Source: a virus
Direction: 5' to 3' (one strand)
Virus record (IMG/VR): IMGVR_UViG_3300011270_000019
Span: 1-20,116 of that record
DNA length: 20,116 bases
The notes below the pieces were generated by a model. The model was not told where the DNA came from. It was given only the letters and a program-made list of their open reading frames with translations, and did no database searches. Positions 7,668 to 20,116 of the stretch are shown here, in pieces (the stretch's first letter is position 1; each line of letters begins with the position of its first letter). The translations under genes were made by a program, and so were the position numbers.

Positions 7668-7773
7668 ACCGATTGCTAAGACGGATAGCCCTTTGCACCT
7701 GCAACGCAACTTGAGCGAGCGCCGCGGGAATCCAGGAACGCGGCGGCAAGCCGATTACGAAACACATCAACGC

Positions 7774-8736
7774 ATGAGCATTCTCAAAGCTCCCTTCCCC
7801 TGGTTCGGCGGCAAGAGCCGCGCGGCTGAGTTGGTCTGGTCCCGATTCGGCGAAGTGCGGAATTACGTCGAGCCGTTCGCGGGCTCGCTGGCGGTGCTGC
7901 TGAGGCGCCCGCATGAGCCGAAGACCGAGACAGTCAACGACAAGGATTGTTACCTCGCTAACTTCTGGCGGGCCTTGCAACACGATCCGGAGGGCGTGGC
8001 GCATTACGCCGACGCACCGGTCAATGAAGCCGACCAGAACGCCCGCCATCTGTGGCTGGTGAACCGCGAAGAGTTCCGCGAGACGATGATGACGGACCCG
8101 GAGTTCTACGATCCCAAGATCGCGGGCTGGTGGGTACACGGTCAATCCACGTGGATCGGATCGGGCTGGTGCGAACTTCGCGAGCGGCCGCTCAAGAAGC
8201 AGCGGCCGCACCTGGGGGACGCGGGCATGGGCGTGCATCGCCAGCGACCGCACCTCGGGCCTGGCTCATTCGGCACCACGATCAATCCGAACAATCGTCG
8301 CGAAGGTAACGGGCTGATCGAATACATGCTGCAACTGGCCGACCGGCTGCGCAAAGTGCGTGTCTGTTGCGGCGACTGGAAGCGCGTCACAGGACCATCG
8401 GTCACGATCAAGCACGGACTCACCGGCATGTTTCTCGATCCGCCGTACGCGGACACGGCGAAACGAGCCAAGGGCCTGTACGCGGTGGATAGCCTCTCGA
8501 TTGCGCATGAAGTGCGCGAGTGGGCCATCGCCAACGGCGACGATCCCAAGCTGAGAATCGCGCTCTGCGGATACGAAGGCGAGCACAAAATGCCGCGGTC
8601 CTGGAAGTGCGTGCCGTGGAAAGCGGCGGGCGGCTACGGATCGCAATCGGACAAAGCCGGGCGCGCGAACAAGCACCTGGAGCGGATCTGGTTCTCGCCG
8701 CACTGTCTCCCCGAACGTCTCAAGCGCGTAGCGTAG
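7774..8736 (+). CDS. dam: D12-class N6-adenine DNA methyltransferase (Dam-like)
   Basis: A 320-residue adenine methyltransferase that transfers a methyl group from S-adenosylmethionine to N6 of adenine in DNA. It has the D12-class signature APFPWFGGKSRAA (6-18), the cofactor motif YVEPFAGS (31-38) and catalytic DPPY (222-225). The long interval between the last two contains WWVHGQSTWIGSGWC (119-133) and a short internal repeat, QRPHLG at 143-148 and 157-162. The ATG at 7774 was chosen because family similarity begins right there; an upstream extension to 7657 overlaps the terminase end and is not family-like. No Shine-Dalgarno is seen. Phage Dam-like enzymes protect DNA from host restriction or tune gene expression; the target site cannot be read from the sequence. 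It lies between packaging and lysis genes. Confidence 0.9.
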   Translation: MSILKAPFPWFGGKSRAAELVWSRFGEVRNYVEPFAGSLAVLLRRPHEPKTETVNDKDCYLANFWRALQHDPEGVAHYADAPVNEADQNARHLWLVNREEFRETMMTDPEFYDPKIAGWWVHGQSTWIGSGWCELRERPLKKQRPHLGDAGMGVHRQRPHLGPGSFGTTINPNNRREGNGLIEYMLQLADRLRKVRVCCGDWKRVTGPSVTIKHGLTGMFLDPPYADTAKRAKGLYAVDSLSIAHEVREWAIANGDDPKLRIALCGYEGEHKMPRSWKCVPWKAAGGYGSQSDKAGRANKHLERIWFSPHCLPERLKRVA

Positions 8737-8787: not shown

Positions 8788-9165
8788 ATGATTTCCGAAT
8801 CGATCGAGTTGGAGCAAGACGCGCGCCGCCTGGCCCCGCCGGATGCCCCACCCGCCCAGTCACCGGGCGATACATCCGGGCGGGGCCGGCTCCATCTGCT
8901 CTCCGTCGAACACCAGGCCATGGCGCTGGCTCTCACCCCCAAGCAATTGCGCCTGGTGCTGATGCTCGGCCGGGACCGCACCGACCGGCAGATCGCCTAT
9001 GGCCTGAGCGTCTCGCCGCATTCGGTGAGCATGGTGCTGGCGCACGTCCGCCGGGTGACGGGGATGAGCCGCCTGGGACTGGCGGTGATGGGATACCTTT
9101 TGAGGCAGGCCGGCTTCTCGCAGCCACCCTGCACGGCATCCCCGCTCGAAACGAGATTGAAATGA
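8788..9165 (+). CDS. LuxR/GerE-type HTH regulator without sensor domain
   Basis: A 125-residue protein whose second half (about 49-107) is a LuxR/GerE helix-turn-helix: LTPKQLRLVLMLGRDRTDRQ, then IAYGLSVSPHSVSMVLAHVR and 'GMSRLGLAV', the layout of the DNA-binding domain of FixJ/NarL/LuxR regulators. The first 45 residues are Pro/Ala-rich and look disordered; no receiver, autoinducer-binding or PAS domain is present. It should therefore bind DNA constitutively or via another protein. There is no clear Shine-Dalgarno. Its stop overlaps the next start by 4 nt (ATGA, 9162-9165), coupling it to the XhlA-like peptide. The position suggests control of late or lysis genes, which is inference. Confidence 0.78.
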   Translation: MISESIELEQDARRLAPPDAPPAQSPGDTSGRGRLHLLSVEHQAMALALTPKQLRLVLMLGRDRTDRQIAYGLSVSPHSVSMVLAHVRRVTGMSRLGLAVMGYLLRQAGFSQPPCTASPLETRLK

Positions 9166-9320
9166 ACCAGGCAACCGTAGTCGAAACCGTGGTGCGCCAC
9201 GACGAACAGATCAAGGATTTGGATGAGAGGGTGAATTCCATGGCATCTACACTGACCTGGATCTTACGGTTCGGGATCGCCACCTTGGTCGGAGTCGCGG
9301 TCAACCTGCTCAAGAAATAA
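9162..9320 (+). CDS. XhlA-like small membrane protein, 52 aa
   Basis: A 52-residue peptide beginning MNQATVVETVVRHDEQIKDL. The first 27 residues form an amphipathic, heptad-like coiled coil (V, V, I, L and V spaced by charged residues). Residues 30-49 form one transmembrane segment (TWILRFGIATLVGVAVNLL) followed by KK. This coiled-coil plus C-terminal anchor is the plan of XhlA/hemolysin-type holin partners, which associate with the cytoplasmic membrane at lysis. The ATG overlaps the LuxR-type gene's stop by 4 nt, giving translational coupling. Family membership is judged from architecture only; a short structural membrane peptide is the alternative. Confidence 0.6.
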   Translation: MNQATVVETVVRHDEQIKDLDERVNSMASTLTWILRFGIATLVGVAVNLLKK

Positions 9321-9324
9321 ACGT

Positions 9325-9519
9325 ATGGATTGCGCCATCGAAATCTTCCCGGACGAGCAGGACGGCATCGAAGGTGTGGGAATGATTCTGCACCAAGCCT
9401 CCATCGTCGAATCTGGCGAAGGGGAATTGGCGGCCGGATGCAAATTGTCGATGGATGGCGCTTTGAAGCTGGCCCACGGATTGATGGCCTGTCTCGAAAG
9501 ATTGCAGGCAGAAAACTGA
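9325..9519 (+). CDS. Small hypothetical protein, 64 aa
   Basis: Not recognised. The 64-residue acidic protein starts MDCAIEIFPDEQDGIEGVGM. It has a beta-prone N-terminal half and a helical C-terminal part (LSMDGALKLAHGLMACLERL). There is no membrane segment or signal peptide. The start lies 4 nt after the XhlA-like gene's stop, so reinitiation is plausible; only a weak purine run (AAGAAA) precedes it. It belongs to the run of short plus-strand genes between the regulator and the holin-like gene. The function is unknown. Confidence 0.55.
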   Translation: MDCAIEIFPDEQDGIEGVGMILHQASIVESGEGELAAGCKLSMDGALKLAHGLMACLERLQAEN

Positions 9520-9527
9520 ACACAAGA

Positions 9528-9683
9528 ATGCCCAGCCCTTTGAACCCTCACGCGGAGACCGCAATCTCCGGGGAGATCCAGGACCGCTGCCGCGTGGAAC
9601 TGGCGGACGCGCCGCGCCTGGCGGAATGCCTCCGGCTCTATCGCGAGATGGAGCTCGAACGCCTCGGGGAAACGCCGGTCTGA
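9528..9683 (+). CDS. Small hypothetical protein, 51 aa
   Basis: Not recognised. The 51-residue protein starts MPSPLNPHAETAISGEIQDR and is predicted to be mostly helical with many charged residues (ECLRLYREMELERLGE at the C-terminus). The ATG lies 8 nt after the preceding stop. A longer frame open to 9330 is out of phase with the 64-aa gene and would overlap nearly all of it, so the short form is preferred. No Shine-Dalgarno is evident. It could be a short DNA-binding or structural peptide, but nothing in it decides this. Confidence 0.4.
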   Translation: MPSPLNPHAETAISGEIQDRCRVELADAPRLAECLRLYREMELERLGETPV

Positions 9684-9686
9684 CCC

Positions 9687-9773
9687 TTATTTGTTTTTGC
9701 TGGGCTTTCCGGCCTTGTGAGCCGTGCCCTTTTTGGTCGCGGTCGTTTTCTTCCCGGCAACAGTTTTAGCCAT
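9687..9773 (-). CDS. Lysine-rich 28-aa peptide, minus strand, predicted leaderless
   Basis: A 28-residue peptide starting MAKTVAGKKTTATKKGTAHK, with nine lysines, no acidic residues, and Ala/Thr/Gly filling the rest, like a histone-H1 tail. It lies on the minus strand between two plus-strand genes, in a gap of 133 bp. An extended -10 box (TGC-TATGCT on the minus strand, 9780-9788) ends exactly 6 nt before the ATG, the same geometry as at the 59-aa early gene. This implies a leaderless transcript. No Shine-Dalgarno is present. The composition suggests binding to DNA, RNA or an acidic protein. Being so short it could be fortuitous, but the composition and promoter together argue otherwise. Confidence 0.45.
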   Translation of the reverse strand: MAKTVAGKKTTATKKGTAHKAGKPSKNK

Positions 9774-9779
9774 GCCCCG

Positions 9780-9788
9780 AGCATAGCA
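9780..9788 (-). promoter_or_regulatory. Extended -10 promoter for the lysine-rich peptide
   Basis: The minus strand reads TGCTATGCT here: TGn followed by a -10-like TATGCT (9780-9785). The predicted start point, 7 nt after the box, is the A of the peptide's ATG (9773). No convincing -35 is present, which extended -10 promoters tolerate. Confidence 0.4.
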
Positions 9789-9816
9789 ATTTCAACCTCA
9801 CTAAAGGATACACAAC

Positions 9817-10008
9817 ATGCCACGCTGGCTTCAAATCCTATTGCACATCGCCACTACCGGAGCGGGCGCTTACATCGCCTACTCGACCGGCACGGCGCTG
9901 CCACTGGTCATATCGGGCGGCGTCAACACATTGGTCGGTAGCATCGCGCAGAACTACAACACGGACGGCACGCCGCAGGCGCAGCCCTTCGTAAAGGCCC
10001 CGAAGTGA
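9817..10008 (+). CDS. Small membrane protein, holin-like, 63 aa
   Basis: A 63-residue hydrophobic protein starting MPRWLQILLHIATTGAGAYI. Two hydrophobic stretches (about 4-22 and 27-45, rich in Gly and Ala) could each cross the membrane, followed by a polar tail (NYNTDGTPQAQPFVKAPK). The size and layout fit a small holin that would let a lytic enzyme reach the cell wall. The start has one of the few good plus-strand Shine-Dalgarno sites (AAAGGA, 8 nt upstream). Its TGA overlaps the GTG of the next gene (GTGA, 10005-10008), so it is coupled to the RlpA-like protein. The holin role is inferred from topology and neighbours. Confidence 0.55.
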   Translation: MPRWLQILLHIATTGAGAYIAYSTGTALPLVISGGVNTLVGSIAQNYNTDGTPQAQPFVKAPK

Positions 10009-10400
10009 TCGCGGTCAAGGCCACGCGCGAGGGGCTGGTCGCCAAACGGGTCCAGAACGCGGACGGCACGGTGACGATCACCGGACGCCCTACTTCGAGC
10101 GGCTACCTGATCGATACGGTAGTGCCGTTCGTGGCGCTGCCGGACGGGAAAGCGCTGGATCGGTTCGTGCGGGTGACCAATCCGGCCAACGGCCGATCGG
10201 CGATCGCCTGGGTGGGAGAAACCGGGCCGTGGAACGAGCACGACGACGCGTATGTGTTCGGGGGCGCACGGCCGGCGGCCGAAACCGGTGTGGACACGCG
10301 CGGGCGCAAGACCAACGGCGCGGGCATCGACCTCTCCGAGAAAATCTACCGTCAACTGGGCCTGATCGATAACTCTCCGGTCGAGTGGGAGTTCGTCTGA
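10005..10400 (+). CDS. RlpA-like double-psi beta-barrel protein, possible lysis enzyme
   Basis: A 131-residue protein with the pattern of an RlpA-type double-psi beta-barrel: 'RVTNPANGRSAIAWV' (56-70), 'GETGPW' (71-76) and 'GAGIDLSEKIYRQLGL' (105-120), corresponding to VTN..NGRS...GP...IDLS....LG of the family. Such barrels act on peptidoglycan glycan strands as lytic transglycosylases or bind them. Here a Glu stands where many RlpA proteins have Asp before GP, so activity is not certain. There is no signal peptide. The start is GTG, overlapping the holin-like gene's stop by 4 nt, with AAAGG 7 nt upstream. It follows a holin-like gene, and no conventional endolysin is in the window, so it may be the lytic enzyme; a virion-associated wall-degrading role is the alternative. 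Confidence 0.6.
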   Translation: MIAVKATREGLVAKRVQNADGTVTITGRPTSSGYLIDTVVPFVALPDGKALDRFVRVTNPANGRSAIAWVGETGPWNEHDDAYVFGGARPAAETGVDTRGRKTNGAGIDLSEKIYRQLGLIDNSPVEWEFV

Positions 10401-10410
10401 TCGCACCGCG

Positions 10411-10590
10411 ATGCCCCAATATGTTCCGGCGGCTCCGATTGCGGACGTACTGTTCGAGCAGTTGGCCGAACTGCTGACGCACGTCTTGGATTGCACTCGA
10501 CAGCCCGGCGGCTGCGATACCTGCATCCGTCTCGAAGCCGTCACGAAAGAATTGCTCTGGCCGTTCCGACACCCAGAAAAACGAAGTTAG
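10411..10590 (+). CDS. Small Cys-containing protein, 59 aa
   Basis: Not recognised. The 59-residue protein starts MPQYVPAAPIADVLFEQLAE: a helical N-terminal half followed by H24-x3-C28-x6-C35-x2-C38, a possible zinc-binding group, and another helix (LEAVTKELLWPF). The ATG lies 10 nt after the RlpA-like stop, and the gene ends 4 nt before the portal start, so it fits the late operon exactly. No Shine-Dalgarno is visible. Small Cys-rich proteins in this place are common in phage head regions, but I can give no function. Confidence 0.55.
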   Translation: MPQYVPAAPIADVLFEQLAELLTHVLDCTRQPGGCDTCIRLEAVTKELLWPFRHPEKRS

Positions 10591-10594
10591 CCGA

Positions 10595-11971
10595 ATGCCG
10601 ATCACTCCCACGCTGATTAAACTGCTGGACCGGGCGGAGAACCCGCGCGCCATCCGGGCGGCCTGCTGGGCGCTCGAAAAAGCCACCGGATTGAAGAGCA
10701 TGGATCTGCTGAGCACCGGGGTCGGCGGAACGCTGGGCCTGGGATACGGCGCGGGCGGCTGGTACGAGCGCAACGGCTTTCACCTTCCGGGATGGAACGC
10801 CTACGGCTCCTACGCCGGGCAATTCATCTCGCGGGATACGGCGCTGCAATCGAGCGCGTTTTTCTGCGGCGTCAAAATCATTTCGGAAGACCTGGGTGCG
10901 TTGCCCTTCTTCGTGTATCGACGCTCGCAGGACCGGACCCAGATCGATAAGTTCTACGAGCACCCGCTCTACACCACCCTGCACGATCTGGTGAACCCCG
11001 AAATCTCAGCCGGGGAATTCGTGGAAAGCCTCACGGCGCACGCGCTCATGACGGGCAACGGGTTCGCCGAAATCCAGCGCGGCCAGCAGACCGTGTATCT
11101 CTGGCCGTGGCAGCCGGAGCAGACGCGCATCGTCCGCGACAGCGCCGGCAAACTGTTCTACATCAATTCGGCGACGGGAAAAGACAAGACCTACGCGCGC
11201 ACCGATGTCTTTCACCTGAAGGGCTGGACCCTGGATGGATTGCAGGGCGAGAACACGCTCATGCGGATGCGCCACGTCCTGGGGATCACGCTCGCCGTGG
11301 ACGAATACCGCGGCCGGTATTTCGTCAACGACGCGACGCCGGGCGTGGTGCTTACGCGGCCGCCGGGGAGTGAGAAATGGGGTCCGGAAGTCCTGAAGGC
11401 TTTCAAGGAAGCCTGGAAGCAATGGCACCGGGGCACGGGGAATTCTCACGAGCCGGCGGTCATCCAGGACGGCATGACGATTGAGAAGATCACGCCTTCG
11501 AACGTCGAATCCCAACTCCGCGAATTGAGCCAGCATCAGATCGAGGAAGTCTGCCGCATCCTGCGGTTGCCGCCGCACAAGCTGGCGGAACTGAAGCGAT
11601 CGACCAACAACAACATCGAGCATCAGGGCATCGATTACGTGAGCAACACCATCGGTCCCTGGGCGGACCGCTGGCGCCGATCCGTCTGGCGCTGCCTCCT
11701 GACCACCGACGAACAGACCGCCAACCGGGTCTGGGCAGAGATGGAACTAGCCTCGCTGACGCGCGGGGACTTGAGCACGCAATCGGAAGCCTGGCGGAAG
11801 CTGCTCGAAAAAGGCGTCTTCTCGATCAACGAAGTCCGCAAATTCCTCAATCTGAATCCGGTCGAGGGCGGCCAAAACCATTTTATACAGCTCAATATGG
11901 CGACGGTGCAAGATGTCGCCTCGGGGGCTACGCTTGCGCAAAACGAGAGCGGGACTTTACCGATTCGTTGA
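10595..11971 (+). CDS. Portal protein, HK97 family
   Basis: A 458-residue HK97-type portal. Twelve copies form the ring at one head vertex through which DNA enters and leaves and to which the terminase docks. Recognisable family segments are 'QSSAFFCGVKIISEDLGALPF' across 86-106, 'HPLYTTLHDLVNPEISAGEF' (122-141), 'HALMTGNGFAEI' (148-159), 'RLPPHKLAEL' near 344-353, and the late 'VFSINEVRKFLNLNPVEGG' (409-427). Length is slightly over the family's usual 400-430 because of an N-terminal Gly-rich segment (42-60). The ATG at 10595 gives a natural opening, MPITPTLIKLLDR; there is no strong Shine-Dalgarno. It stands in normal order before protease and capsid. Confidence 0.93.
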   Translation: MPITPTLIKLLDRAENPRAIRAACWALEKATGLKSMDLLSTGVGGTLGLGYGAGGWYERNGFHLPGWNAYGSYAGQFISRDTALQSSAFFCGVKIISEDLGALPFFVYRRSQDRTQIDKFYEHPLYTTLHDLVNPEISAGEFVESLTAHALMTGNGFAEIQRGQQTVYLWPWQPEQTRIVRDSAGKLFYINSATGKDKTYARTDVFHLKGWTLDGLQGENTLMRMRHVLGITLAVDEYRGRYFVNDATPGVVLTRPPGSEKWGPEVLKAFKEAWKQWHRGTGNSHEPAVIQDGMTIEKITPSNVESQLRELSQHQIEEVCRILRLPPHKLAELKRSTNNNIEHQGIDYVSNTIGPWADRWRRSVWRCLLTTDEQTANRVWAEMELASLTRGDLSTQSEAWRKLLEKGVFSINEVRKFLNLNPVEGGQNHFIQLNMATVQDVASGATLAQNESGTLPIR

Positions 11972-12093
11972 ACCATTGCCAGCCAGCATCCGAGGCACAG
12001 CGTTCCATCGAGCGGCGAAGTTTGCAAATGATGTCCCGAGCCATCCGGCTCGCGCATCTCTTGCGTGCAGATCCGGCAAGTGTTTTTCATCAT
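11635..12093 (-). CDS. Possible antisense zinc-ribbon ORF overlapping the portal 3' end
   Basis: The minus strand opens with two adjacent ATGs (12091-12093, 12088-12090) behind a GGAG site. Its first 45 residues, lying almost wholly in the gap after the portal gene, look like a zinc ribbon (CRIC near residues 5-8 and CLGC near 33-36, with HH between). The remaining 110 or so residues run antisense to the portal gene with shadow-like composition. A short zinc-ribbon gene that lost its stop codon, or chance, would both explain this. The protein as drawn is doubtful; the N-terminal segment is the credible part. Confidence 0.3.
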   Translation of the reverse strand: MMKNTCRICTQEMREPDGSGHHLQTSPLDGTLCLGCWLAMVQRIGKVPLSFCASVAPEATSCTVAILSCIKWFWPPSTGFRLRNLRTSLIEKTPFSSSFRQASDCVLKSPRVSEASSISAQTRLAVCSSVVRRQRQTDRRQRSAQGPMVLLT

Positions 12094-12114
12094 TCACTCC
12101 GAGGGTAATACGCC

Positions 12115-12264
12115 ATGATCCCCGAATTAGAATCCGACGATCCCGTGTGGTGCCTGGTGAGCTGGGACATCATGCTGCGCCCCTACCGGCGCCCGCGGCG
12201 CAAGCTGCGCAGCCGGAAGGCTTCGTTCCCGGACCGCGTCCGAAATCGCTGCTCTGAATTCTAG
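12115..12264 (+). CDS. Small basic protein, 49 aa
   Basis: Not recognised. The 49-residue protein starts MIPELESDDPVWCLVSWDIM and continues with a very basic stretch (RPYRRPRRKLRSRKASF). The acidic head and Arg-rich tail suggest an interaction with nucleic acid or an acidic virion surface. It has a good Shine-Dalgarno (GAGGG about 9 nt upstream), which is rare on this strand. It fills the gap between portal and protease. A frame open from 11913 overlaps it but begins inside the portal gene and is not preferred. It could be a minor head component or scaffold; function unknown. Confidence 0.45.
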   Translation: MIPELESDDPVWCLVSWDIMLRPYRRPRRKLRSRKASFPDRVRNRCSEF

Positions 12265-12301
12265 CTCAAAGGGCTTGCCCTAATCCTATTTTTTCCACGA
12301 G

Positions 12302-13279
12302 GTGCATTTCAAAAACATGTTGGAAACGAAATCCCTTCTACCCAAGAAGCGCGAGACCAAATCCTTCTCGCTCGAAGTCAAGGCATTGCAGGAGGACGGC
12401 ACTTTTGAAGGCATCCTCGCGGCCTACGGCAACGTCGACCTGGGCGGCGATCTGATCGAGCGCGGCGCCTTCGCCAAGACATTGCAGGAGAGTGGCGGCG
12501 AAGTGCCCATGCTGTGGCAGCACGATCCCGCGCAGCCCATCGGCATCATGAAATTGAAGGATTCGCCCGAGGGCCTGATCGCTTCCGGGCACCTGCTGCT
12601 CGAAGTGCCGCAGGCCAAAACCGCGTATCTCCTGCTCAAGGCCAAGGTGATCAAAGGCCTCTCCATCGGCTTCGACACGATCCAGGATTCCGTCGATAAG
12701 GGCATCCGCCATTTGAAAGAACTGCGGCTCTGGGAAGGCTCGCTCGTGACCTTTCCCATGAACCTCCAGGCCCTCGTGTCCTCCGTCAAAGCCCGGCAGG
12801 CGCTCCATACCAAGGACGATTTCAACGAGGAATTGCAGGAGATCCAGCTCTATTCCGCCTCCTACCAGATGCGCTCGGCGCTGTCGTGCGCGCTCGATTC
12901 GTGCCGCTACGACTCGGCCCTGTCGGACGAGCAGAAACTCTCGGCCGCCGCCGATTCCATCGACCAGTTCAAGGCCGCGTATCTCGAAATGCTGCCGGCG
13001 CTGCTGGCCCTCGAAACCTCCGAAGGCATGGGCTGGATGGCGATGGCCAAGCGGATCGAAACCAAAGCGGGGGCCATGCTCTCGGCCGCCAACCGCAAGA
13101 TTATCGCCGACAGCATGACTTCGCTGGAAGCCTGCAAAAGTTCCCTTCAGGCACTGCTCGACTCCGCCGATGCGGGCAAGTCGGCAGCCGCCCCACCAAC
13201 TACCGAGCCGGGTCCCGATTCCCACTCGTGGTTCGATGCTTTCGCGCAGGAGTGGAAGCAGCAACTGAACGCCCAGTAA
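12302..13279 (+). CDS. Prohead protease, HK97 (U35-type), with C-terminal helical extension
   Basis: A 325-residue prohead protease that cleaves capsid and scaffold N-termini during head maturation. Family signals are 'GTFEGILAAYGNVDLGGDLI' (33-52), 'GAFAKTL' (55-61), 'MLWQHDPAQPIG' with catalytic His74, and 'KGLSIGF' with catalytic Ser121. HK97 gp4 is about 225 residues; here an extra 150 or so residues (about 170-325) are predicted helical and Ala-rich and may act as an internal scaffold fused to the protease. The start is GTG at 12302 or the ATG at 12317; a GAGG site just upstream supports either. The gene lies between portal and capsid in normal order. The antisense frame covering it is a composition artefact. 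Confidence 0.9.
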   Translation: MHFKNMLETKSLLPKKRETKSFSLEVKALQEDGTFEGILAAYGNVDLGGDLIERGAFAKTLQESGGEVPMLWQHDPAQPIGIMKLKDSPEGLIASGHLLLEVPQAKTAYLLLKAKVIKGLSIGFDTIQDSVDKGIRHLKELRLWEGSLVTFPMNLQALVSSVKARQALHTKDDFNEELQEIQLYSASYQMRSALSCALDSCRYDSALSDEQKLSAAADSIDQFKAAYLEMLPALLALETSEGMGWMAMAKRIETKAGAMLSAANRKIIADSMTSLEACKSSLQALLDSADAGKSAAAPPTTEPGPDSHSWFDAFAQEWKQQLNAQ

Positions 13280-13345
13280 CGGCGCAACCCCCCATCCAAC
13301 AATCCTCACCGACCCCAGAACCACCCACAGGAGAACCACGAATCC

Positions 13346-14614
13346 ATGACCCCCGAAGAAATCAAAGCGATGGAAGACATCCGCACCGCCACGCTGGCTG
13401 CGATGGCCGCTTCCAAAACCGAGCACGCCAAGGCGCTCGGCGACCTCTCGACCGCCCTCATCGCGCGCATCGACGAACAGAAGACCAAGGGCTCGATCGA
13501 CCCCGAGACCAAAGAGAAGATCGACCGCCTGTTCGCGCGCCTCGACAAGCTGGAGCTGGACTCGACCCGTCCCGGCAGCGCGGCTTCCGTTTCGACCGAA
13601 GGCAAGAGCGCGGGCGAGCAGGTTATCTCGAGCGAAACCTTCCAGGCCGCGCAGAAATTGCAGTGGCTCGGACAGACCAAGGTTCCCTTCGCCGTGAAGG
13701 GCTGTCTGCCCCAGATCGAAATCCCCGGCCGCAAGAGCGCCATCACCACGGTCGGAGTCGGCACCGGGACCAGCGGCGTGCAGATGCCGCAGCGTTTGCC
13801 CGGCATCACCGGCCTCGCGCGGCAGGCCCTGCGCATCCGCGATCTGTTGACCGTCCGGCCTCTCACCACCGGCAATTCCTTCGACTGGGTCAAGGAGCTG
13901 GCGCGCACCAATAACGCCTCTCCCCAGATCGAATCGACGACCAAGGCGGAATCGACCTACACCTACACCGTGCAATCGGGCTCCGTCAAAACCGTGGCGC
14001 ATTTCATCAACGTCTCGCGCCAGGCTCTGGACGACATCGATTGGCTGCGCGGCAACATCGACTCGAACCTGATCTACGGACTGAAGGTCAAGGAAGAGTC
14101 CGAAATCCTGGCGGGCGACGGGCTGGGCCAGCATCTGAGCGGCCTGGTCACGCAGGCCTCCGCGTACAACACCGCGCTGCACGTGGCGGCCGACACGCGG
14201 CTCGACCAGCTCCGCCACGCCATCTTGCAGGCGCGCCTGGCCGGGTTGGACACTTACGCTCCGGACGGCATCGTTCTCCATCCGACCGATATGGAGAAAA
14301 TCGAATTGATCAAGGTGGATCAGTCGGGGGCCAACACCGGCTTGTACATCCTCGGCGATCCCAAGACCGGCACGCAGATCAAGTTCGTCTGGGGCCTCCC
14401 CGTGGTGGAATCCGATTCCATGAGCGTGGGCCAGTTCCTGGTAGGCGGCTTCTCCACCGCCGCCGAATTGGTGGACCGCATGGCCGCCACCGTGCTGATC
14501 TCCTTCGAGCACGGCACCAATTTCACCGACAACATGGCCACCATCCTCTGCGAAGAGAGATTGGGCCTGCCCGTCAGACGGCCCGACGCCTTCATCCAAG
14601 GCACATTCGTCTAA
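13346..14614 (+). CDS. Major capsid protein, HK97 fold
   Basis: A 422-residue major capsid protein that builds the icosahedral shell. Residues 1-75 form a charged, coiled-coil-like delta domain (EEIKAMEDIRTATLAAMAAS and further) that serves as internal scaffold. The HK97 fold follows, with 'LLTVRPLTTGNSFDWVKEL' (167-185), 'TYTYTVQSGSVKTVAHFINV' in the E-loop/A-domain region, and 'DGIVLHPTDMEKIELIK' plus 'GLPVVESDSM' later. Residues R129-K130-S131 ('GRKSA') resemble the cleavage point of HK97, where the protease cuts after a Lys; this is inference. AGGAG lies 12 nt upstream of the ATG, a longer spacing than usual. It follows the protease in classic order. Confidence 0.93.
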   Translation: MTPEEIKAMEDIRTATLAAMAASKTEHAKALGDLSTALIARIDEQKTKGSIDPETKEKIDRLFARLDKLELDSTRPGSAASVSTEGKSAGEQVISSETFQAAQKLQWLGQTKVPFAVKGCLPQIEIPGRKSAITTVGVGTGTSGVQMPQRLPGITGLARQALRIRDLLTVRPLTTGNSFDWVKELARTNNASPQIESTTKAESTYTYTVQSGSVKTVAHFINVSRQALDDIDWLRGNIDSNLIYGLKVKEESEILAGDGLGQHLSGLVTQASAYNTALHVAADTRLDQLRHAILQARLAGLDTYAPDGIVLHPTDMEKIELIKVDQSGANTGLYILGDPKTGTQIKFVWGLPVVESDSMSVGQFLVGGFSTAAELVDRMAATVLISFEHGTNFTDNMATILCEERLGLPVRRPDAFIQGTFV

Positions 14615-14634
14615 CCCTCAAACGCCGTTTAGCC

Positions 14635-14671
14635 CCGTGCGCCCGCGCGCCAGCAAAGCGCGGGCGCACGG
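14635..14671 (+). terminator. Perfect 14-bp GC-rich hairpin after the capsid gene
   Basis: CCGTGCGCCCGCGC (14635-14648) pairs without mismatch to GCGCGGGCGCACGG (14658-14671) around a 9-nt loop (GCCAGCAAA), 20 nt after the capsid stop. No U-run follows, so it is not a classic intrinsic terminator. It may pause transcription, mark a processing site, or protect the capsid mRNA 3' end so that capsid is made in excess of downstream proteins. The 14672-14781 stretch beyond it contains no convincing gene. Confidence 0.6.
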
Positions 14672-14781
14672 AGTTATCCAGGACCGCGCAGTCGTCAAAC
14701 AGAGCCTCCAGCAAACACCGTGACGCCGCGCTGGCACCTCCGCCCCGCGAGCAGATCGTCCGAACAAAAAAAGAAACCTTT

Positions 14782-15021
14782 ATGCCAAGACTGATCGCTA
14801 TCCGCCAGTTGACCGGGGACTACGGCTGCGTAGACCCAGGCCAGCAGTTCGAGACCGACGCAGAGACCGCCGAGTCCCTGGAATCGCGCGGCCTCGCCTA
14901 CGTCTACCGCCCGCCGCGCTCCTTAGCGGAGCGTAAGGCCATGCAGGCGCCCGAAAACAAGGCCATGCAGGTGTCCGGCGACAAGGGCCATCCGTTCGAA
15001 TTCATCGTCCGCTCGAAATAA
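14782..15021 (+). CDS. Small conserved-type phage protein, 79 aa
   Basis: The 79-residue protein starts MPRLIAIRQLTGDYGCVDPG, with 'DAETAESLESRGLAYVY' (26-42) following. This is the pattern of short proteins often found directly after the capsid gene in HK97-type phages, with a small beta domain ('GDYG...PG..F') and a helix ('ETA..LE.RGLA'). They are probably minor head-completion or decoration proteins, though their role is not established. The C-terminal 35 residues contain an imperfect duplication (KAMQAPENKAMQVSGDK). The ATG was chosen for the conserved opening; a purine run (AAAAAAAGAAA) precedes it in place of a true Shine-Dalgarno. It ends 5 nt before the connector gene. Confidence 0.7.
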   Translation: MPRLIAIRQLTGDYGCVDPGQQFETDAETAESLESRGLAYVYRPPRSLAERKAMQAPENKAMQVSGDKGHPFEFIVRSK

Positions 15022-15026
15022 CTCTC

Positions 15027-15719
15027 ATGCGCATCCTGCCCTGGAACCATCGTGTGCCCGTGCTGCGGGTGGTCACCCCGCCCGCGATGGAGCCCCTGTC
15101 TCTGGCCGAGGCCAAGCAGCAGATCCGGCTGGAGCAGGATTTTTCGGACGAGGACGACTACCTCTATCTCCTGATCGGCGCGGCCCGGCGCTTCTGCGAG
15201 CGCAGGAAAAGCTATTGCCTGGTCGAGCAGACCCTGGAATATTCCATCGACTGGTTCCCGCACTATCCGTTGGACGGCCTGGTGCTGCCCTATCCGGGAA
15301 GCAATTTGGGAATCGGCCTGTCGGCGTTTGCGATCGAATTGCCGAGGGCCACGCCGTTGCGCTCCATTCTGTCGGTCTACTACAGCGATTCGAACGGTGT
15401 CGCCGCCCTGTGGGATGCCTCCAACTACCGGGCCGAGACCTCCCGCACCCCCGGACTGCTGGTGCCGAATTACGGAGTGTCTTACCCGTCGTTCACGCCG
15501 CAGAACCAGAACGCGGTGAAGATCCAATACGTGGCGGGACCGGCGCTGCTCTCTCCGTCTGATGAAATCGACCCGTGCATCAAATTGGCGATGGGCCTGT
15601 TGGTCGGGCACTGGTATCAGAACCGCGAAGCCGCCGGAGGCACCGGAGGATTCGGAGTCATGCGGGAGCACGCCTTAATGGTGGACGACCTGCTGGGACT
15701 GGACCAACTGATTTTCTGA
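15027..15719 (+). CDS. Head-tail connector, phiE125 gp8 / gp6-like family
   Basis: A 230-residue protein of the phiE125 gp8/gp6-like head-tail connector group, which forms the adaptor ring below the portal and seals the filled head. Family features are the N-terminal 'VVTPPAMEPLSLAEAKQQIR' (16-35), 'DDYLYLLIGAARRFCERR' (43-60), a middle beta domain, and the helical 'IDPCIKLAMGLLVGHWYQNREA' with the 'REHALMVDDLLG' end. Length is normal. The ATG lies 5 nt after the preceding stop. It is the last recognisable assembly gene in the window; the next tail-related genes would be expected after it, but a glycosyltransferase follows. Confidence 0.88.
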   Translation: MRILPWNHRVPVLRVVTPPAMEPLSLAEAKQQIRLEQDFSDEDDYLYLLIGAARRFCERRKSYCLVEQTLEYSIDWFPHYPLDGLVLPYPGSNLGIGLSAFAIELPRATPLRSILSVYYSDSNGVAALWDASNYRAETSRTPGLLVPNYGVSYPSFTPQNQNAVKIQYVAGPALLSPSDEIDPCIKLAMGLLVGHWYQNREAAGGTGGFGVMREHALMVDDLLGLDQLIF

Positions 15720-15782
15720 ACGCTGGCTGGGCTCCCGCGCAAGCCCGCTCCGCAGACGTAAAAGGCCAAAGAGAATTACATC

Positions 15783-16391
15783 GTGTTGGTCAGTGCCATC
15801 ATGCCCACGCGCGGGCGCCCGCAATTCGCTCAACGCGCACTGGAATGCTTTCTCTCGCAGACCTGGCCCGAGAAAGAACTGGCGATCCTGGACGATGCGG
15901 ACAACCCGAGTTTTCCGGATGGAATCGCAGGCGAAGGAATTTACTACGAGCGGTTGAAGCGCAGGCTATCGATCGGCGCCAAACGAAACCTCTGCTGCTC
16001 GCGGGCCTCGGGCGACGTCCTGATGCACTGGGATGACGACGACTGGAGTTCGCCGGAACGGATGGCCGATCAGGTAGAACGCCTGAGTCAAGCGAACTGC
16101 GGGTTGACCGGTTATCACTCCATGATCTTCGAGGACCGGGATACCGGGAAGCGCTGGAAGTATACAGGCCCCCTGCACGGCGCCGATGCCCTTGGCACCT
16201 CGCTCTGCTACACGCGCCGGTTCTGGATGGCGCATCCGTTCCCCGATCGACAGGTCGGCGAGGACGGAGCGGTTACGGGCCGCGTCTCGGGCATTCTCTC
16301 GGTGGACGCCGGCGATTTGCTGATCGCCACGATTCACCCGGGCAACACCAGCCCCAAGACCATGGGCCGCCGCTGGGCGCTCCTCGACTGA
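15783..16391 (+). CDS. Glycosyltransferase family 2, short form (202 aa)
   Basis: A GT-A fold glycosyltransferase that moves a sugar from a nucleotide-sugar donor. Visible: the nucleotide-binding opening 'SAIMPTRGRP' (4-13), 'GAKRNLCCSRASGDVLMHWD' (65-84) leading into the metal-binding Asp run D84-D87, and catalytic-type GED (159-161) with a late 'IHPGNTS'. No membrane segment is present, so it is cytoplasmic and probably acts on a protein or small acceptor. It starts with GTG behind a weak purine-rich site. Only the GT-A core is present, short for family 2. It opens the sugar-modification cassette directly after the head-tail connector gene. The donor and acceptor cannot be read from sequence. 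Confidence 0.85.
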   Translation: MLVSAIMPTRGRPQFAQRALECFLSQTWPEKELAILDDADNPSFPDGIAGEGIYYERLKRRLSIGAKRNLCCSRASGDVLMHWDDDDWSSPERMADQVERLSQANCGLTGYHSMIFEDRDTGKRWKYTGPLHGADALGTSLCYTRRFWMAHPFPDRQVGEDGAVTGRVSGILSVDAGDLLIATIHPGNTSPKTMGRRWALLD

Positions 16392-16498
16392 CCGTTCTTT
16401 TTCCGCCCGCGCTTTTTCACCTGCCCAGTTCCCGGCGGTGAAGCAATTCGACCCGTTACAAATCGCAACTCAACTCTAAAAGGACACCAAACAAAACA

Positions 16499-16894
16499 AT
16501 GGCTGCAATCACGAATATCTTCACCGATACGATCTCGATTTCGTACTCGGGCAACGGCAAAACCGTCTCCACCAAAACCGGCACCTACACCGGCACGCAC
16601 GACGCCGGCGTGGCGCTCGTAGTGCCCGCCGGCTCGGTGGACCTGCTGGTTGCCATCGAATTCCCGGTGGCCGGGATTCAATCCCTGGTCATGGCCGCTT
16701 CCGAGGACGTCACCGTCAAGACCAACGCGATCTCACCGCCCGCCGATTCGTTCACGGTGAAGAAGACCGCCGGCGTGGTGTGGGGCTCGGATTATCACAA
16801 CGCCTGCCCCTTCGGCACCAACGTCACGGCATTCTATATCTCGAACGCAGGGGTCACCGACGCCAAGTTCGATTTCCGCGTGCTGTACAACTAA
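16499..16894 (+). CDS. Ser/Thr-rich probable virion surface protein, 131 aa
   Basis: Not assigned to a family. The 131-residue protein is almost entirely beta-prone, with Gly/Thr/Val-rich strands (TGTHDAGVALVVPAGSVDLL near 31-50) and only a few charged residues. Thirteen of the first 35 residues are Ser or Thr. No signal peptide or membrane segment is seen. The pattern fits a decoration, tail-tube or fibre-type virion protein. AAAGGA lies 14 nt before the ATG. It is sandwiched between a glycosyltransferase and a methyltransferase, which makes it a candidate acceptor for the cassette's sugar. Both the structural role and the acceptor idea are inference. Confidence 0.6.
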   Translation: MAAITNIFTDTISISYSGNGKTVSTKTGTYTGTHDAGVALVVPAGSVDLLVAIEFPVAGIQSLVMAASEDVTVKTNAISPPADSFTVKKTAGVVWGSDYHNACPFGTNVTAFYISNAGVTDAKFDFRVLYN

Positions 16895-16983
16895 CCCAAC
16901 TCTGGCGATTCTCTTTGCGCCCGTTCGTCAACGGATGGGCGGGCGCGGAGATCCAAGAGTCAGCCTCAATCTGCGAACTCCTC

Positions 16984-17469
16984 ATGAAACTGAACCTGGG
17001 TGCGTGCGACCGGAGATTCCCCGGATTCACTTCGGTCGATATCGTTCCGCCGGCGGACGAGATCGCGGACCTTACAAAGCCGTGGCCGTGGGAGACAGCC
17101 AGCGTCCAGGAAGTGCTGGCATACGACGTCTTCGAACACCTGCCAAATAAGCGCCACACCATGAACGAGCTGTGGCGCGTGCTGAAGCCGGGCGGGATCG
17201 CACGCATCCAGGTCCCTCACGCAACCCTGGGAGACGGAGGGCATTGCGACCCGACGCATTGTTCCTACTGGACCTGCAGCGACTTCGAATACTATGTGCC
17301 GGGAGTGCCGGAACGGGAGCGCTTCCGCAATTCAGCCTACTATGGAGTGAAGGCAGATTTCCGCATTTTGAACCTCACCTCCCGCGGACACATTCCCACG
17401 CAACGCTGCGAACGGAAGTTCGGCGGGTACGTGACTGAGATCCAGGTGGTGATCGAGGCCGTGAAATGA
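16984..17469 (+). CDS. Class I SAM-dependent methyltransferase (Methyltransf_11 type)
   Basis: A 161-residue methyltransferase starting MKLNLGACDRRFPGFTSVDI: motif I (LNLGA, 3-7; here Ala-Cys replaces the common Cys-Gly), the acidic residue D19, 'LAYDVFEHLPNKRHTMNELW' (45-64) and 'RVLKPGGIARIQVPHA' (65-80). This layout is typical of enzymes that methylate sugars or small molecules and are common in glycan gene clusters. The start is the family-like MKLNLG; the frame is open from 16780 but that part is not family-like. No Shine-Dalgarno is seen. Its stop overlaps the next start by 4 nt, beginning a chain of five such overlaps. Sugar O-methylation of a virion glycan is the likely role, by inference. 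Confidence 0.85.
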   Translation: MKLNLGACDRRFPGFTSVDIVPPADEIADLTKPWPWETASVQEVLAYDVFEHLPNKRHTMNELWRVLKPGGIARIQVPHATLGDGGHCDPTHCSYWTCSDFEYYVPGVPERERFRNSAYYGVKADFRILNLTSRGHIPTQRCERKFGGYVTEIQVVIEAVK

Positions 17470-17783
17470 GCGGCGGCGATTATCAGCTATTCAGCGGACG
17501 CAGCACGGCCAAGGGTATATGGCTGTCGGCTTCTGACCTGGACCGATTGCTGTATGCCTGCCTGCCGGGCCTGAGCGGTCAGGATATCTTGACGCGGGAG
17601 TTGATGACGGAAGCGCGATGCGAAGAATGCGGTGGAGTGAAGTCCACGAATTGCTCTCCTGAATACATCGACCATACCCCCGGTTGCCCCGGAGTCGCCA
17701 GATATCTGTTCGTGCAGCAAATGATCAAGGATGCTGCAAAGAAATCGATCTGGCGGCGCATCTATGAAATCGCCGTACCATGA
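17466..17783 (+). CDS. Small protein with zinc-ribbon-like Cys pattern, 105 aa
   Basis: Not recognised. The 105-residue protein starts MSGGDYQLFSGRSTAKGIWL. Cysteines C52, C55, C63 and C74, with His70, make a possible zinc site (CEEC...C...C). The C-terminal third is helical and basic (MIKDAAKKSIWRRIYE). It starts within the methyltransferase stop (ATGA) and ends within the next glycosyltransferase start (ATGA), so it is translated as part of the cassette. It may be an accessory or targeting subunit for the sugar enzymes, which is speculation from position. Confidence 0.7.
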   Translation: MSGGDYQLFSGRSTAKGIWLSASDLDRLLYACLPGLSGQDILTRELMTEARCEECGGVKSTNCSPEYIDHTPGCPGVARYLFVQQMIKDAAKKSIWRRIYEIAVP

Positions 17784-18562
17784 AGAACGATCTCTCGGTC
17801 ATCGTCCCCTCGAAGACGGCATCGAATCTGATCCCCTGCGTTCAGGCGATCCGTGCGGCTGGCGAAGTCGCGGACATCATCGTGGTGAGCGATTTCGACG
17901 ATCATGCCCTAGCGCGTCTGGCGCTTGAGGAATGCCCCGGCGTCGGATGTCTCTGCAAGATCGCCAACCTCGTAGCCGGCCAGAAGCCTTTCGTCTTCGC
18001 GCGCAATGTGAACATCGGCATCCGGGCAGCCGGGTCTGACGACGTGATCGTGCTCAACGACGACGCGCTGCTCCAATCCCCCGGCGGCTTCACGCTGATG
18101 CAACAGGCCGCCGAAGACTACCCGGAGTTCGGCATCATCGGCGCCACATGCAACAACGTCGGGAATCCCAATCAGTCACGGATCAAGGGCGGCGGTATCT
18201 ACGGCGCTGGCATTCGTGGCGGATTGCTCGCCGGGTTGCGCCAGGACAAGCGCATGGTCTGTTTCACGGCGGTTCTCGTTCCCAGGCGCACGCTCGAAAA
18301 CGTAGGCCTGTTGGACGAACGGTTTATTTCGTATGGCTGCGAAGACGACGATTATTGTTTGCGCGTGCGCAAGGCGGGATTGAAGATCGGCATTCACGAC
18401 GGTTGTTATGTGGATCACGGCTCTCTCGCATCGAGTTTCCGAGCAAAGGGCGGCGCCGGTGGAGATTATCGTCCGAACCTGCGGCGTTTCATCGAAAAAT
18501 GGGGCGTGGACAATTGGGGATGCGATCGGACACATTCGCACTTTAAGGAATTGTTTCCGTGA
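17780..18562 (+). CDS. Glycosyltransferase family 2 (rhamnosyltransferase-like), 260 aa
   Basis: A GT-A glycosyltransferase with the usual opening MKNDLSVIVPSKTASNLIPC, 'FARNVNIGIRAAGSDDVIVL' (73-92) leading into the DxD-type 'NDDA' (93-96), and the acceptor-side 'GLLDERFISYGCEDDDYCLR' (176-195) with catalytic-type E188-D189-D190 and His213. This arrangement is common in family-2 enzymes that add rhamnose or similar sugars to polysaccharides. No membrane helix is present. It overlaps the genes on both sides by 4 nt (ATGA upstream, GTGA downstream). It probably adds a second sugar to the product of the cassette; the donor is unknown. Confidence 0.9.
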   Translation: MKNDLSVIVPSKTASNLIPCVQAIRAAGEVADIIVVSDFDDHALARLALEECPGVGCLCKIANLVAGQKPFVFARNVNIGIRAAGSDDVIVLNDDALLQSPGGFTLMQQAAEDYPEFGIIGATCNNVGNPNQSRIKGGGIYGAGIRGGLLAGLRQDKRMVCFTAVLVPRRTLENVGLLDERFISYGCEDDDYCLRVRKAGLKIGIHDGCYVDHGSLASSFRAKGGAGGDYRPNLRRFIEKWGVDNWGCDRTHSHFKELFP

Positions 18563-19416
18563 GACTCGCCGTCGTCGCCGGAGGCTGGCACTGGCCGCTC
18601 CACTTCTTCGCATCCGTCTCGAAGCAGGCGGGCGCGGCGGACCTGTTCGCCGTGGGGCACCGTTCCCCGGACCTGCCGGTTGTGCGGGAAGAGAAGCGCG
18701 CGATTCTCGAAGCGCTGCCGGGCGAGCTGGGCCGGGTGGACCGCGAACTCTACGGCCGCTATGCGGACACCGCGTGGCTGCATCGCCTGGGATGGCGCTA
18801 TCGGGAAGAACCGAACACGGTAGGCGATTGGGGTTTCTTCAATCAATGGCTGGAGACGCACGACTACCGCAACTACGACCTGATCCTGTTCTGCCACGAC
18901 GATACGTACTTCCGGCCGCGCACCGATCTATTCAAGTTCCTGGCAGCGGTTGCGTCGTCGTCCGATTGGCTGATCGTTTCGCACAGCAAATATCCCGAGG
19001 CACCGCAAGGATACCTGCGCGGTTCGTTCGAATTCTGGACGCCGCAAATGCTGGACCTTTTGGGCGGCAAGATCGACCTGGGGCGGCTCGGCATGACACG
19101 GATGGGTCAATCGGACACACCGGTTGGAATGGAGGCCCTGTCGTCCTGGAATGCCACTTGCGATCCCTTAAGACGCTTCATGAGGGAGCGGAAACTGACG
19201 GACCGGATCGCCTATCTGTCGAATCATTACCGGATCTCACCCTGGGCGATCGAAGGGGAGAGAGGATTCGTCAGCATGCAGGGCGGGGCACCATGGTCGT
19301 TCGAAGCCGGATTGCAAGCCTACCCGCTGCCCAACACGAACGCGGATAGCCCTGTGAGCCGGCACGCAAATACAGAGGGTTCGTCCGGTATCCAGGACCG
19401 CGGCGGGGCGGAATGA
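18559..19416 (+). CDS. Glycosyltransferase-like protein, 285 aa, GTG start
   Basis: A 285-residue protein beginning MRLAVVAGGWHWPLHFFASV. No textbook family is certain, but 'YDLILFCHDDTYFRPRTDLF' (106-125) has the hydrophobic strand plus Asp-Asp pair of GT-A enzymes, and 'EAPQGYLRGSFEFWT' plus 'WNATCD' occupy the place of acceptor-binding parts. Aromatic residues are frequent, as in sugar-binding proteins. The start is GTG, overlapping the upstream stop by 4 nt (GTGA). The C-terminal 25 residues are polar and probably disordered. Cytoplasmic location is expected. A sugar transferase is the best reading from context and the DD motif, with moderate confidence. Confidence 0.65.
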   Translation: MRLAVVAGGWHWPLHFFASVSKQAGAADLFAVGHRSPDLPVVREEKRAILEALPGELGRVDRELYGRYADTAWLHRLGWRYREEPNTVGDWGFFNQWLETHDYRNYDLILFCHDDTYFRPRTDLFKFLAAVASSSDWLIVSHSKYPEAPQGYLRGSFEFWTPQMLDLLGGKIDLGRLGMTRMGQSDTPVGMEALSSWNATCDPLRRFMRERKLTDRIAYLSNHYRISPWAIEGERGFVSMQGGAPWSFEAGLQAYPLPNTNADSPVSRHANTEGSSGIQDRGGAE

Positions 19417-19592
19417 GCGTTCACAAACTCAGACGTCCAGCGGAGCGATGGCACAAAGACGTGCTGGCACTGGCGCGGCAATTGATGCAGAAGTATCCGG
19501 GCCTATCGCGCGATCAGGCGTGGAAGGATGCACGCGGAACGATCCGGATTTCCGGAGAAAAGTATCGGAGTGCCAAGAAAGGAGCGGCGTGA
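19413..19592 (+). CDS. Small basic helical protein, 59 aa
   Basis: Not recognised. The 59-residue protein starts MSVHKLRRPAERWHKDVLAL. It is predicted to be helical, with a central 'KYPGLSRDQAWKDARG' and a basic C-terminus. It begins in the stop codon of the previous gene (ATGA) and its own stop overlaps the GTG of the aminotransferase (GTGA), so it is firmly placed in the coupled cassette despite its size. The charge would allow binding to nucleic acid or to a partner enzyme; no function is assigned. Confidence 0.6.
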   Translation: MSVHKLRRPAERWHKDVLALARQLMQKYPGLSRDQAWKDARGTIRISGEKYRSAKKGAA

Positions 19593-20116
19593 GCGGCAGG
19601 CCCATCGTATTGATGCAGCCCTACGTCCCGGAGTCCGCCATCGCGGCCGTCTCGGAGGTGTTACGCTCGCGCTGGATCGGGCAGGGGCCGAAGGTCGACG
19701 AATTCGAGCGCCAGTTTTCCCGGCAGATCGCCGGCGGGCGCCCCTCGGTGGCGGTCAGTTCCTGCACCGCGGCGCTGCACCTCGCCTACATCCTGGCGGG
19801 AATCGAGCCGGGCGATACGGTGCTCGCACCGCTGTTTACGTGTACGGCGGCCAACGAAGCGCTGCTCTATCGCGGGGCCAAGATCCGGTTCGTGGACGTG
19901 GAGAAAGACTCGCTCAACATGAGTCTCGAATACGCACTCGCTCACGGCCTGAACGAAGCCAAGGCGGTTTCGATTGTCCACTACGGCGGCATGCCGGCCG
20001 ATGTCGGCGGATTCGTACGCCTGCTGCCGGGCACCCCGCTCATCGAAGATTGCGCGCAGGCGCTCGGGGGCTCATACCGGAATACCATGATGCCGCTGGG
20101 GGGCTGGGCCGACTAC
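19589..20116 (+). CDS. DegT/DnrJ/EryC1/StrS-type sugar aminotransferase, partial (runs off the end)
   Basis: The first 176 residues of a PLP-dependent aminotransferase of the DegT family, which converts a keto-sugar nucleotide to an amino sugar. Signals: 'LRSRWIGQGPKVDEFERQF' (25-43), 'AVSSCTAALHLA' (55-66), 'FVDVEKDSLNMS' (101-112), 'VHYGGMPAD' (130-138) and 'LIEDCAQALGGSY' (151-163), whose Asp154 contacts the PLP ring nitrogen in this family. The PLP-binding Lys lies beyond the window edge. The start is GTG, overlapping the preceding stop by 4 nt. Its presence means the phage can supply an amino sugar, not just transfer host sugars. NDP-hexose is the expected substrate by family. Confidence 0.9.
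   Translation, partial: MSGRPIVLMQPYVPESAIAAVSEVLRSRWIGQGPKVDEFERQFSRQIAGGRPSVAVSSCTAALHLAYILAGIEPGDTVLAPLFTCTAANEALLYRGAKIRFVDVEKDSLNMSLEYALAHGLNEAKAVSIVHYGGMPADVGGFVRLLPGTPLIEDCAQALGGSYRNTMMPLGGWADY

Follow-up and report, generated by a model that had tools for sequence, protein, structure and literature searches.

Why would a phage keep genes for making and transferring sugars in the middle of its head-tail morphogenesis region? This question is raised by the IMG/VR virus record IMGVR_UViG_3300011270_000019, of which we analysed positions 1 to 20,116 (this whole 20,116-base stretch is called the window below). On its plus strand the head genes are followed by a block of glycan-type genes, which starts at position 15,783 and reaches the end of the window. 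We interpret this block, with a probability of about 0.75, as a cassette for virion glycosylation that lies inserted among the head-tail morphogenesis genes of one operon in an uncultured siphophage of the HK97 type.

Genes and borders of the cassette

The head genes upstream of the block are terminase, portal, prohead protease, major capsid protein (MCP), a small protein and the head-tail adaptor Ad1. After Ad1 follow GT2a, a 131-amino acid (aa) protein, a methyltransferase, a 105-aa protein, GT2b, GTx, a 59-aa open reading frame (ORF) and DegT. A first-pass annotation, made from the letters of the window, had placed glycosyltransferase-type genes, a methyltransferase and a DegT aminotransferase behind the head-tail connector. 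Pfam matches for GT2a, GT2b, the methyltransferase and DegT, with Ad1 standing before them, bear this out. Missing from that annotation were the 131-aa and 105-aa proteins and the 59-aa ORF.

13346..14614, plus strand: MCP of HK97 type, upstream of the insertion site (Pfam Phage_capsid, E 8e-39)
15027..15719, plus strand: gp6-like head-tail adaptor (Ad1), which borders the cassette on the left (Phage_connect_1, E 1e-5; phrog_40, E 2e-17)
15783..16391, plus strand: GT2a, a family-2 glycosyltransferase (Glycos_transf_2, E 8e-16) and candidate for the protein-specific first transfer; co-diverges with portal, MCP, Ad1 and Hc1
16499..16894, plus strand: 131-aa protein without family match, with remote relatives by local hidden Markov models (HMMs)
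16984..17469, plus strand: S-adenosylmethionine-dependent methyltransferase (Methyltransf_11, E 9e-7; phrog_6636, E 8e-10); likely start ATG 16984, read from the sequence
17466..17783, plus strand: 105-aa protein without assigned function, with 4-base overlaps at both ends
17780..18562, plus strand: GT2b, family-2 glycosyltransferase (Glyco_tranf_2_3, E 8e-10) with NDD and D.D motifs
18559..19416, plus strand: GTx, predicted GT-A-fold glycosyltransferase without family model (predicted local distance difference test, pLDDT, of the model 79; HDD motif)
19413..19592, plus strand: 59-aa ORF, overlapping the GTx stop and the DegT start, read from the sequence
19589..20116, plus strand: 5' part of a DegT/DnrJ/EryC1/StrS sugar aminotransferase (PF01041, E 1e-32 for the part in the window), complete at L004:10482-11597

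Three glycosyltransferase-type genes had been counted in the window. Two of them, GT2a and GT2b, hold by family, both falling into known GT2 families with conserved acidic motifs; in the 8 GT2b sequences compared the NDD motif is invariant and is accompanied by the D.D motif. The third, GTx, has neither a family nor a PDB sequence match and appears GT-A-like by predicted structure only. Its HDD motif is invariant in 12 sequences. The AlphaFold2 model with the pLDDT of 79 was built from a set of 12 sequences. Matches of this model in the PDB and in a viral library are mostly GT-A enzymes with modest template modelling (TM) scores, among them TarP, GpgS, the collagen galactosyltransferase COLGALT1, the PBCV-1 capsid glycosyltransferase and STIV A197. 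The best Foldseek E-value was 2e-4, with TM-scores of 0.35-0.45 to GT-A and related nucleotidyltransferase folds. An earlier model from 9 sequences had a pLDDT of 51, and its fold matches were discarded.

The methyltransferase, which had been called sugar-type, stands as such by family and is possibly a sugar O- or N-methyltransferase, with the sugar as a putative substrate. The 131-aa protein is possibly a virion protein, judging from remote relatives that adjoin tail-tube or tape-measure genes in two loci (L057 and L112, by local HMMs); a direct scan with it retrieved the same phage only.

The DegT gene probably starts at GTG 19589, behind AGGAG, and not at ATG 19448. The complete protein matches PF01041 with an E-value of 3e-69 over 360 positions, and its pyridoxal phosphate (PLP) lysine lies in SFQAVK and is conserved in 14 of 14 loci. 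Its solved relatives are, by score, 4xau and 4zwv, both of which we take to be AtmS13, followed by TlmJ, CalS13 and then ArnB. Going by these nearest solved relatives, DegT would act on a keto-sugar nucleotide. A methylated 4-amino sugar would be a reasonable guess.

The suspicion that the cassette continues past position 20116 proved right. The IMG/VR contig 3300012363_000021 (24.9 kb) equals window positions 9108-20116 at 99.945% identity. It supplies the rest of DegT with the PLP lysine and, behind it, genes for a glycosyltransferase of the TOD1/MUCI70 type (PF04765) and for the third GT2, GT2c. There the cassette, now with two more glycosyltransferase genes, ends at the head closure gene Hc1, which is followed by the neck protein, tail terminator, tail tube, chaperones and tape measure. 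Connector genes therefore bound the closed cassette at both ends, Ad1 on the left and Hc1 on the right.

Epimerase, dehydratase and nucleotidyltransferase genes had been expected beyond the window; none was present when we looked for them in the closed cassette of this contig, and therefore the donor precursor has to be supplied by the host or by other parts of the phage genome. The claim that the phage carries its own sugar donor step holds in part, for the predicted DegT reaction, given the conserved catalytic lysine, and fails for the other donor-pathway enzymes, which the cassette does not encode.

Related loci and co-divergence with the head

IMG/VR scans with GTx and GT2b returned ten and eighty loci, respectively, with overlap between the two sets; most of the contigs compared are fragments. 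By local HMM maps, cassette genes are found in 81 viral loci, the mapped genes all lying on one strand. In the 39 loci that show both head and connector/tail genes, the block is located between them without exception; GT2a opens it in 36 of these loci and GT2c closes it in 31. Most loci have it between MCP and Ad1; in the window phage and G002, as in a few other loci, it follows Ad1 and precedes Hc1. ORF counts by local HMMs gave 14 DegT, 12 GTx, 21 TOD1-type and 53 methyltransferase genes. Accessory genes occur in single lineages: a UDP-glucose-type dehydrogenase and a GNAT acetyltransferase, each adding to the sugar-donor enzymes in one relative, a 2-oxoglutarate (2OG)-Fe(II) oxygenase and further glycosyltransferases. 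In the window, 4-base stop/start overlaps chain the consecutive genes from the methyltransferase through the 59-aa ORF after GTx. Because of these overlaps, and because the syntenic order recurs in independent contigs, the gene set is not a chance assembly.

We compared pairwise identities across dereplicated loci by Mantel tests. GT2a identities correlate with those of portal (0.81), MCP (0.46-0.51), Ad1 (0.56-0.58) and Hc1 (0.60), all with a Mantel p of about 0.001, approximately as the head genes do among themselves. For GT2b and GT2c the correlation with MCP is about 0, though GT2c usually adjoins Ad1, and the methyltransferase gave a mixed result with 0.11 against MCP and 0.51 against Ad1 (13 loci). 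We read this as GT2a being probably tied to a substrate in the head, with the other cassette genes being exchanged, and name GT2a as the likely protein-specific step.

In cultured phages whose capsids are related (Pseudomonas pAN and phi2, Vibrio VaK) the block is absent, and MCP is separated from Ad1 and the connectors by one or two small genes. The distance from MCP to the connector has a median of 306 bp in 79 capsid-selected loci and exceeds 1.5 kb in nine of 73; one of these nine holds the cassette. At this junction L148, L152, L153 and L175 carry other glycosyltransferases and/or sugar-type methyltransferases and L165 a methyltransferase (Pfam), while inspection only points to look-alikes of glycan genes in L176 and L203 and to an acyltransferase-like gene in L141. 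The glycan-type genes that occupy the MCP-Ad1/Hc1 junction of these other phages (methyltransferases of FkbM and other types, GT-D, GT2) are unrelated to the cassette, and the junction looks like a recurrent site for glycan genes. A bolder proposal, to which we give slightly less than even odds, is that the junction is a dedicated 'virion glycan locus' of tailed phages, with a head-specific initiating GT2a inherited together with the head and the rest swapped to alter the sugar coat, as in bacterial O-antigen loci. What is conserved would then be the site and not one gene family.

Searches of genome contigs with GTx and with the capsid protein found no relative, and PADLOC gave no match. Glycan genes in sequenced phages were distant matches only, the best being a mangrove-soil phage with a glycosyltransferase block near the terminase, in a different arrangement.

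One relative, G008, has a gene for a collagen-like protein shortly before the cassette (L019:1223-2371) and a 2OG-Fe(II) oxygenase gene within it (L019:4280-4945). It is conceivable that this collagen-like protein is a virion protein that becomes hydroxylated and glycosylated. As a general acceptor model the combination was dropped, with collagen-like ORFs in four loci only.

G001 and G002 form the lineage to which the window phage belongs. Here a repeat B of ~80 bp lies directly before GT2a, DegT, the TOD1-type gene and GT2c and also before the structural genes Hc1, neck, tail terminator and tail tube, and a repeat A of about 75 bp stands after genes. The presence of repeat B before cassette and structural genes alike fits one late programme. 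As direct repeats, A and B fill most late intergenic gaps of the lineage (G002, on the reverse strand of L013; L004). Two copies of repeat B were located in the window:

15728..15793, plus strand: repeat B copy overlapping the GT2a start (nhmmer E 2.5e-9; the profile was made of G001 and G002 copies, among them the G001 twin of this copy)
16903..16976, minus strand: inverted repeat B copy just before the methyltransferase (nhmmer E 2.2e-11), with an exact GGCGCAAAGAGAAT at 16908-16921

Repeats A and B were also considered as strong hairpins, which was rejected as their folding is not unusual. Between the capsid gene and DegT, sites resembling promoters or terminators showed no excess over a shuffled background. 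Between repeats A and B there is often a small antisense ORF that starts right at B, giving repeated antisense moron-like units. The ORFs at L004:12423-12644 (minus strand) and at 18539-18757 (minus strand) of the L013 reverse strand, antisense between late genes, encode homologous small Cys-rich proteins (SDCCNAPV..GFGAATC..VCTACGDACDTKP), which are possibly zinc ribbons.

Further from the cassette, a D12-class N6-adenine DNA methyltransferase is encoded between the terminase and portal genes (window 7657-8736, plus strand). Window 23-1675 (minus strand) encodes a beta clamp of DNA polymerase III in which all three domains are present and which carries an HTH_17 helix-turn-helix at its C terminus. 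In the relative G003 the portal gene is split by an intein with a LAGLIDADG-like domain (L006:3-1844).

Proposed virion glycosylation and its alternatives

In the mechanism that we infer, which extends to the acceptor, the sugar identities, the order of reactions and a benefit to the phage, the cassette would be expressed late together with the head and tail genes. GT2a would put the first sugar on a phage structural protein, with the capsid, the tail tube or another head protein as candidates, and GT2b, GTx, the TOD1/MUCI70-type enzyme and GT2c would lengthen the chain. DegT would aminate a 4-keto sugar nucleotide supplied by the host, which yields an amino-sugar donor, and a sugar would be tailored by the methyltransferase. 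The product would be a short particle glycan, probably methylated and bearing an amino sugar. A glycan for the virion was one of two roles put forward in the first-pass annotation, and it is supported by the position, the operon structure, the synteny in many phages, the co-divergence of GT2a with head proteins and the precedent of mycobacteriophage Corndog discussed below.

Several points weigh against this. The virion glycan and its acceptor are predictions from the genes, and late expression is presumed. The loci of the co-divergence test were chosen by GT2b similarity, and GT2a usually adjoins the capsid gene, such that linkage may account for part of the signal. Moreover, tblastn searches with GT2a, GT2b and GTx against 50,697 phage records returned remote uncultured matches only and detected no homology to the Corndog enzymes, Corndog's presence among these records being unconfirmed.

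The other suggested role was at the cell surface. On this reading the enzymes would change a surface glycan of the host, such as its lipopolysaccharide or capsule, during infection or lysogeny and so exclude competing phages, as serotype-converting gtr cassettes do. Phage glycosyltransferases are well known as serotype converters. GT2 and DegT enzymes are moreover typical of bacterial surface polysaccharide pathways, as are the weak best NCBIfam matches, and serotype conversion by phage glycosyltransferases is noted in PMC12619734. However, the family searches of the closed cassette gave no match to a GtrA-type flippase, a polymerase or a polytopic GtrC-type membrane glucosyltransferase, and none of nine cassette proteins has a clear membrane helix by crude hydropathy. 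The position within a late morphogenesis operon, kept in all 39 informative loci, and the co-divergence of GT2a with the head likewise leave host-surface exclusion unsupported, and we consider it unlikely. Alternatively, the glycosyltransferases might protect the phage genome from restriction by adding sugars to hydroxymethylated bases. DNA-hypermodifying phage glycosyltransferases exist (Pyle et al. 2024, as cited in PMC12619734), two relatives have a 2OG-Fe(II) oxygenase and four of 14 records show a C5 DNA methylase match. Yet this oxygenase belongs to the 2OG-FeII_Oxy_3 family, the window's own DNA methylase is of the N6-adenine type, and in the 14 partial records (eight of them 43-62 kb) there was no Tet_JBP or thymidylate-synthase-type match above the cut-off, the Tet_JBP search being weak without a positive control. 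DNA modification is thus very unlikely.

The reading that we think the most improbable is that of passenger genes, taken up from host sugar genes by chance or for a short time and without a defined role in the particle. Glycosyltransferases found in viral contigs are often counted among the auxiliary metabolic genes (for example in PMC6460857) and the content of the block differs among loci, but gene set and place are kept in independent, diverged contigs, with conserved motifs and chained reading frames.

In the literature examined, the tailed phages with documented virion glycosylation are mainly a few mycobacteriophages. Our results suggest that such glycosylation is common in uncultured siphophages, and that phages exchange entire gene blocks for glycan assembly, a sugar aminotransferase included, at a fixed site of the head operon. 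If so, genes filed under auxiliary carbohydrate metabolism would be particle-building genes, with consequences for the adsorption, persistence and recognition of phage particles.

Comparison with known glycosylation systems

The closest precedent, by analogy, is found in the Cluster O mycobacteriophages, where Corndog gp35-gp38 (an O-methyltransferase, two glycosyltransferases and an N-acetylglucosaminyltransferase) are located between portal and protease (PMC4351075). Glycosylation of the capsid and of the tail tube by Corndog-type enzymes has been reported (Freeman et al. 2023, cited in both PMC11600133 and PMC12363180). Both systems combine a methyltransferase and several glycosyltransferases within the virion structural operon. 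Unlike the Corndog genes, the cassette sits between capsid/adaptor and head closure, is larger and adds a DegT aminotransferase, a TOD1/MUCI70-type glycosyltransferase and GTx. Che8 and Maravista (Cluster F1) also encode glycosyltransferases, which are reported to act on the phage's own capsid (PMC11256854). In contrast to our cassette, the Maravista glycosyltransferase genes lie outside the head operon, close to the genome's 3' end (PMC11256854).

Further parallels concern function and fold. The chlorovirus PBCV-1 and Mimivirus encode glycosyltransferases for capsid or fibres, and the PBCV-1 capsid enzyme is among the GTx fold matches; these are eukaryotic viruses without a common operon. Mimivirus uses an aminotransferase for an amino sugar. 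The solved relatives closest to the phage DegT are C-4 sugar aminotransferases such as AtmS13, CalS13 and ArnB. For AtmS13 the C-4 amination of a keto-pentose has been postulated, which is later N-methylated, with the methyltransferase AtmS10 and the glycosyltransferase AtmG1 following (PMC10951976). Those pathways encode their own donor synthesis, which the phage cassette does not, and the substrate of the phage DegT is putative. The proposed kind of system is therefore already known from Corndog-type modules; what is new is a block without detectable homology to them that is larger, occupies another site and includes a sugar aminotransferase.

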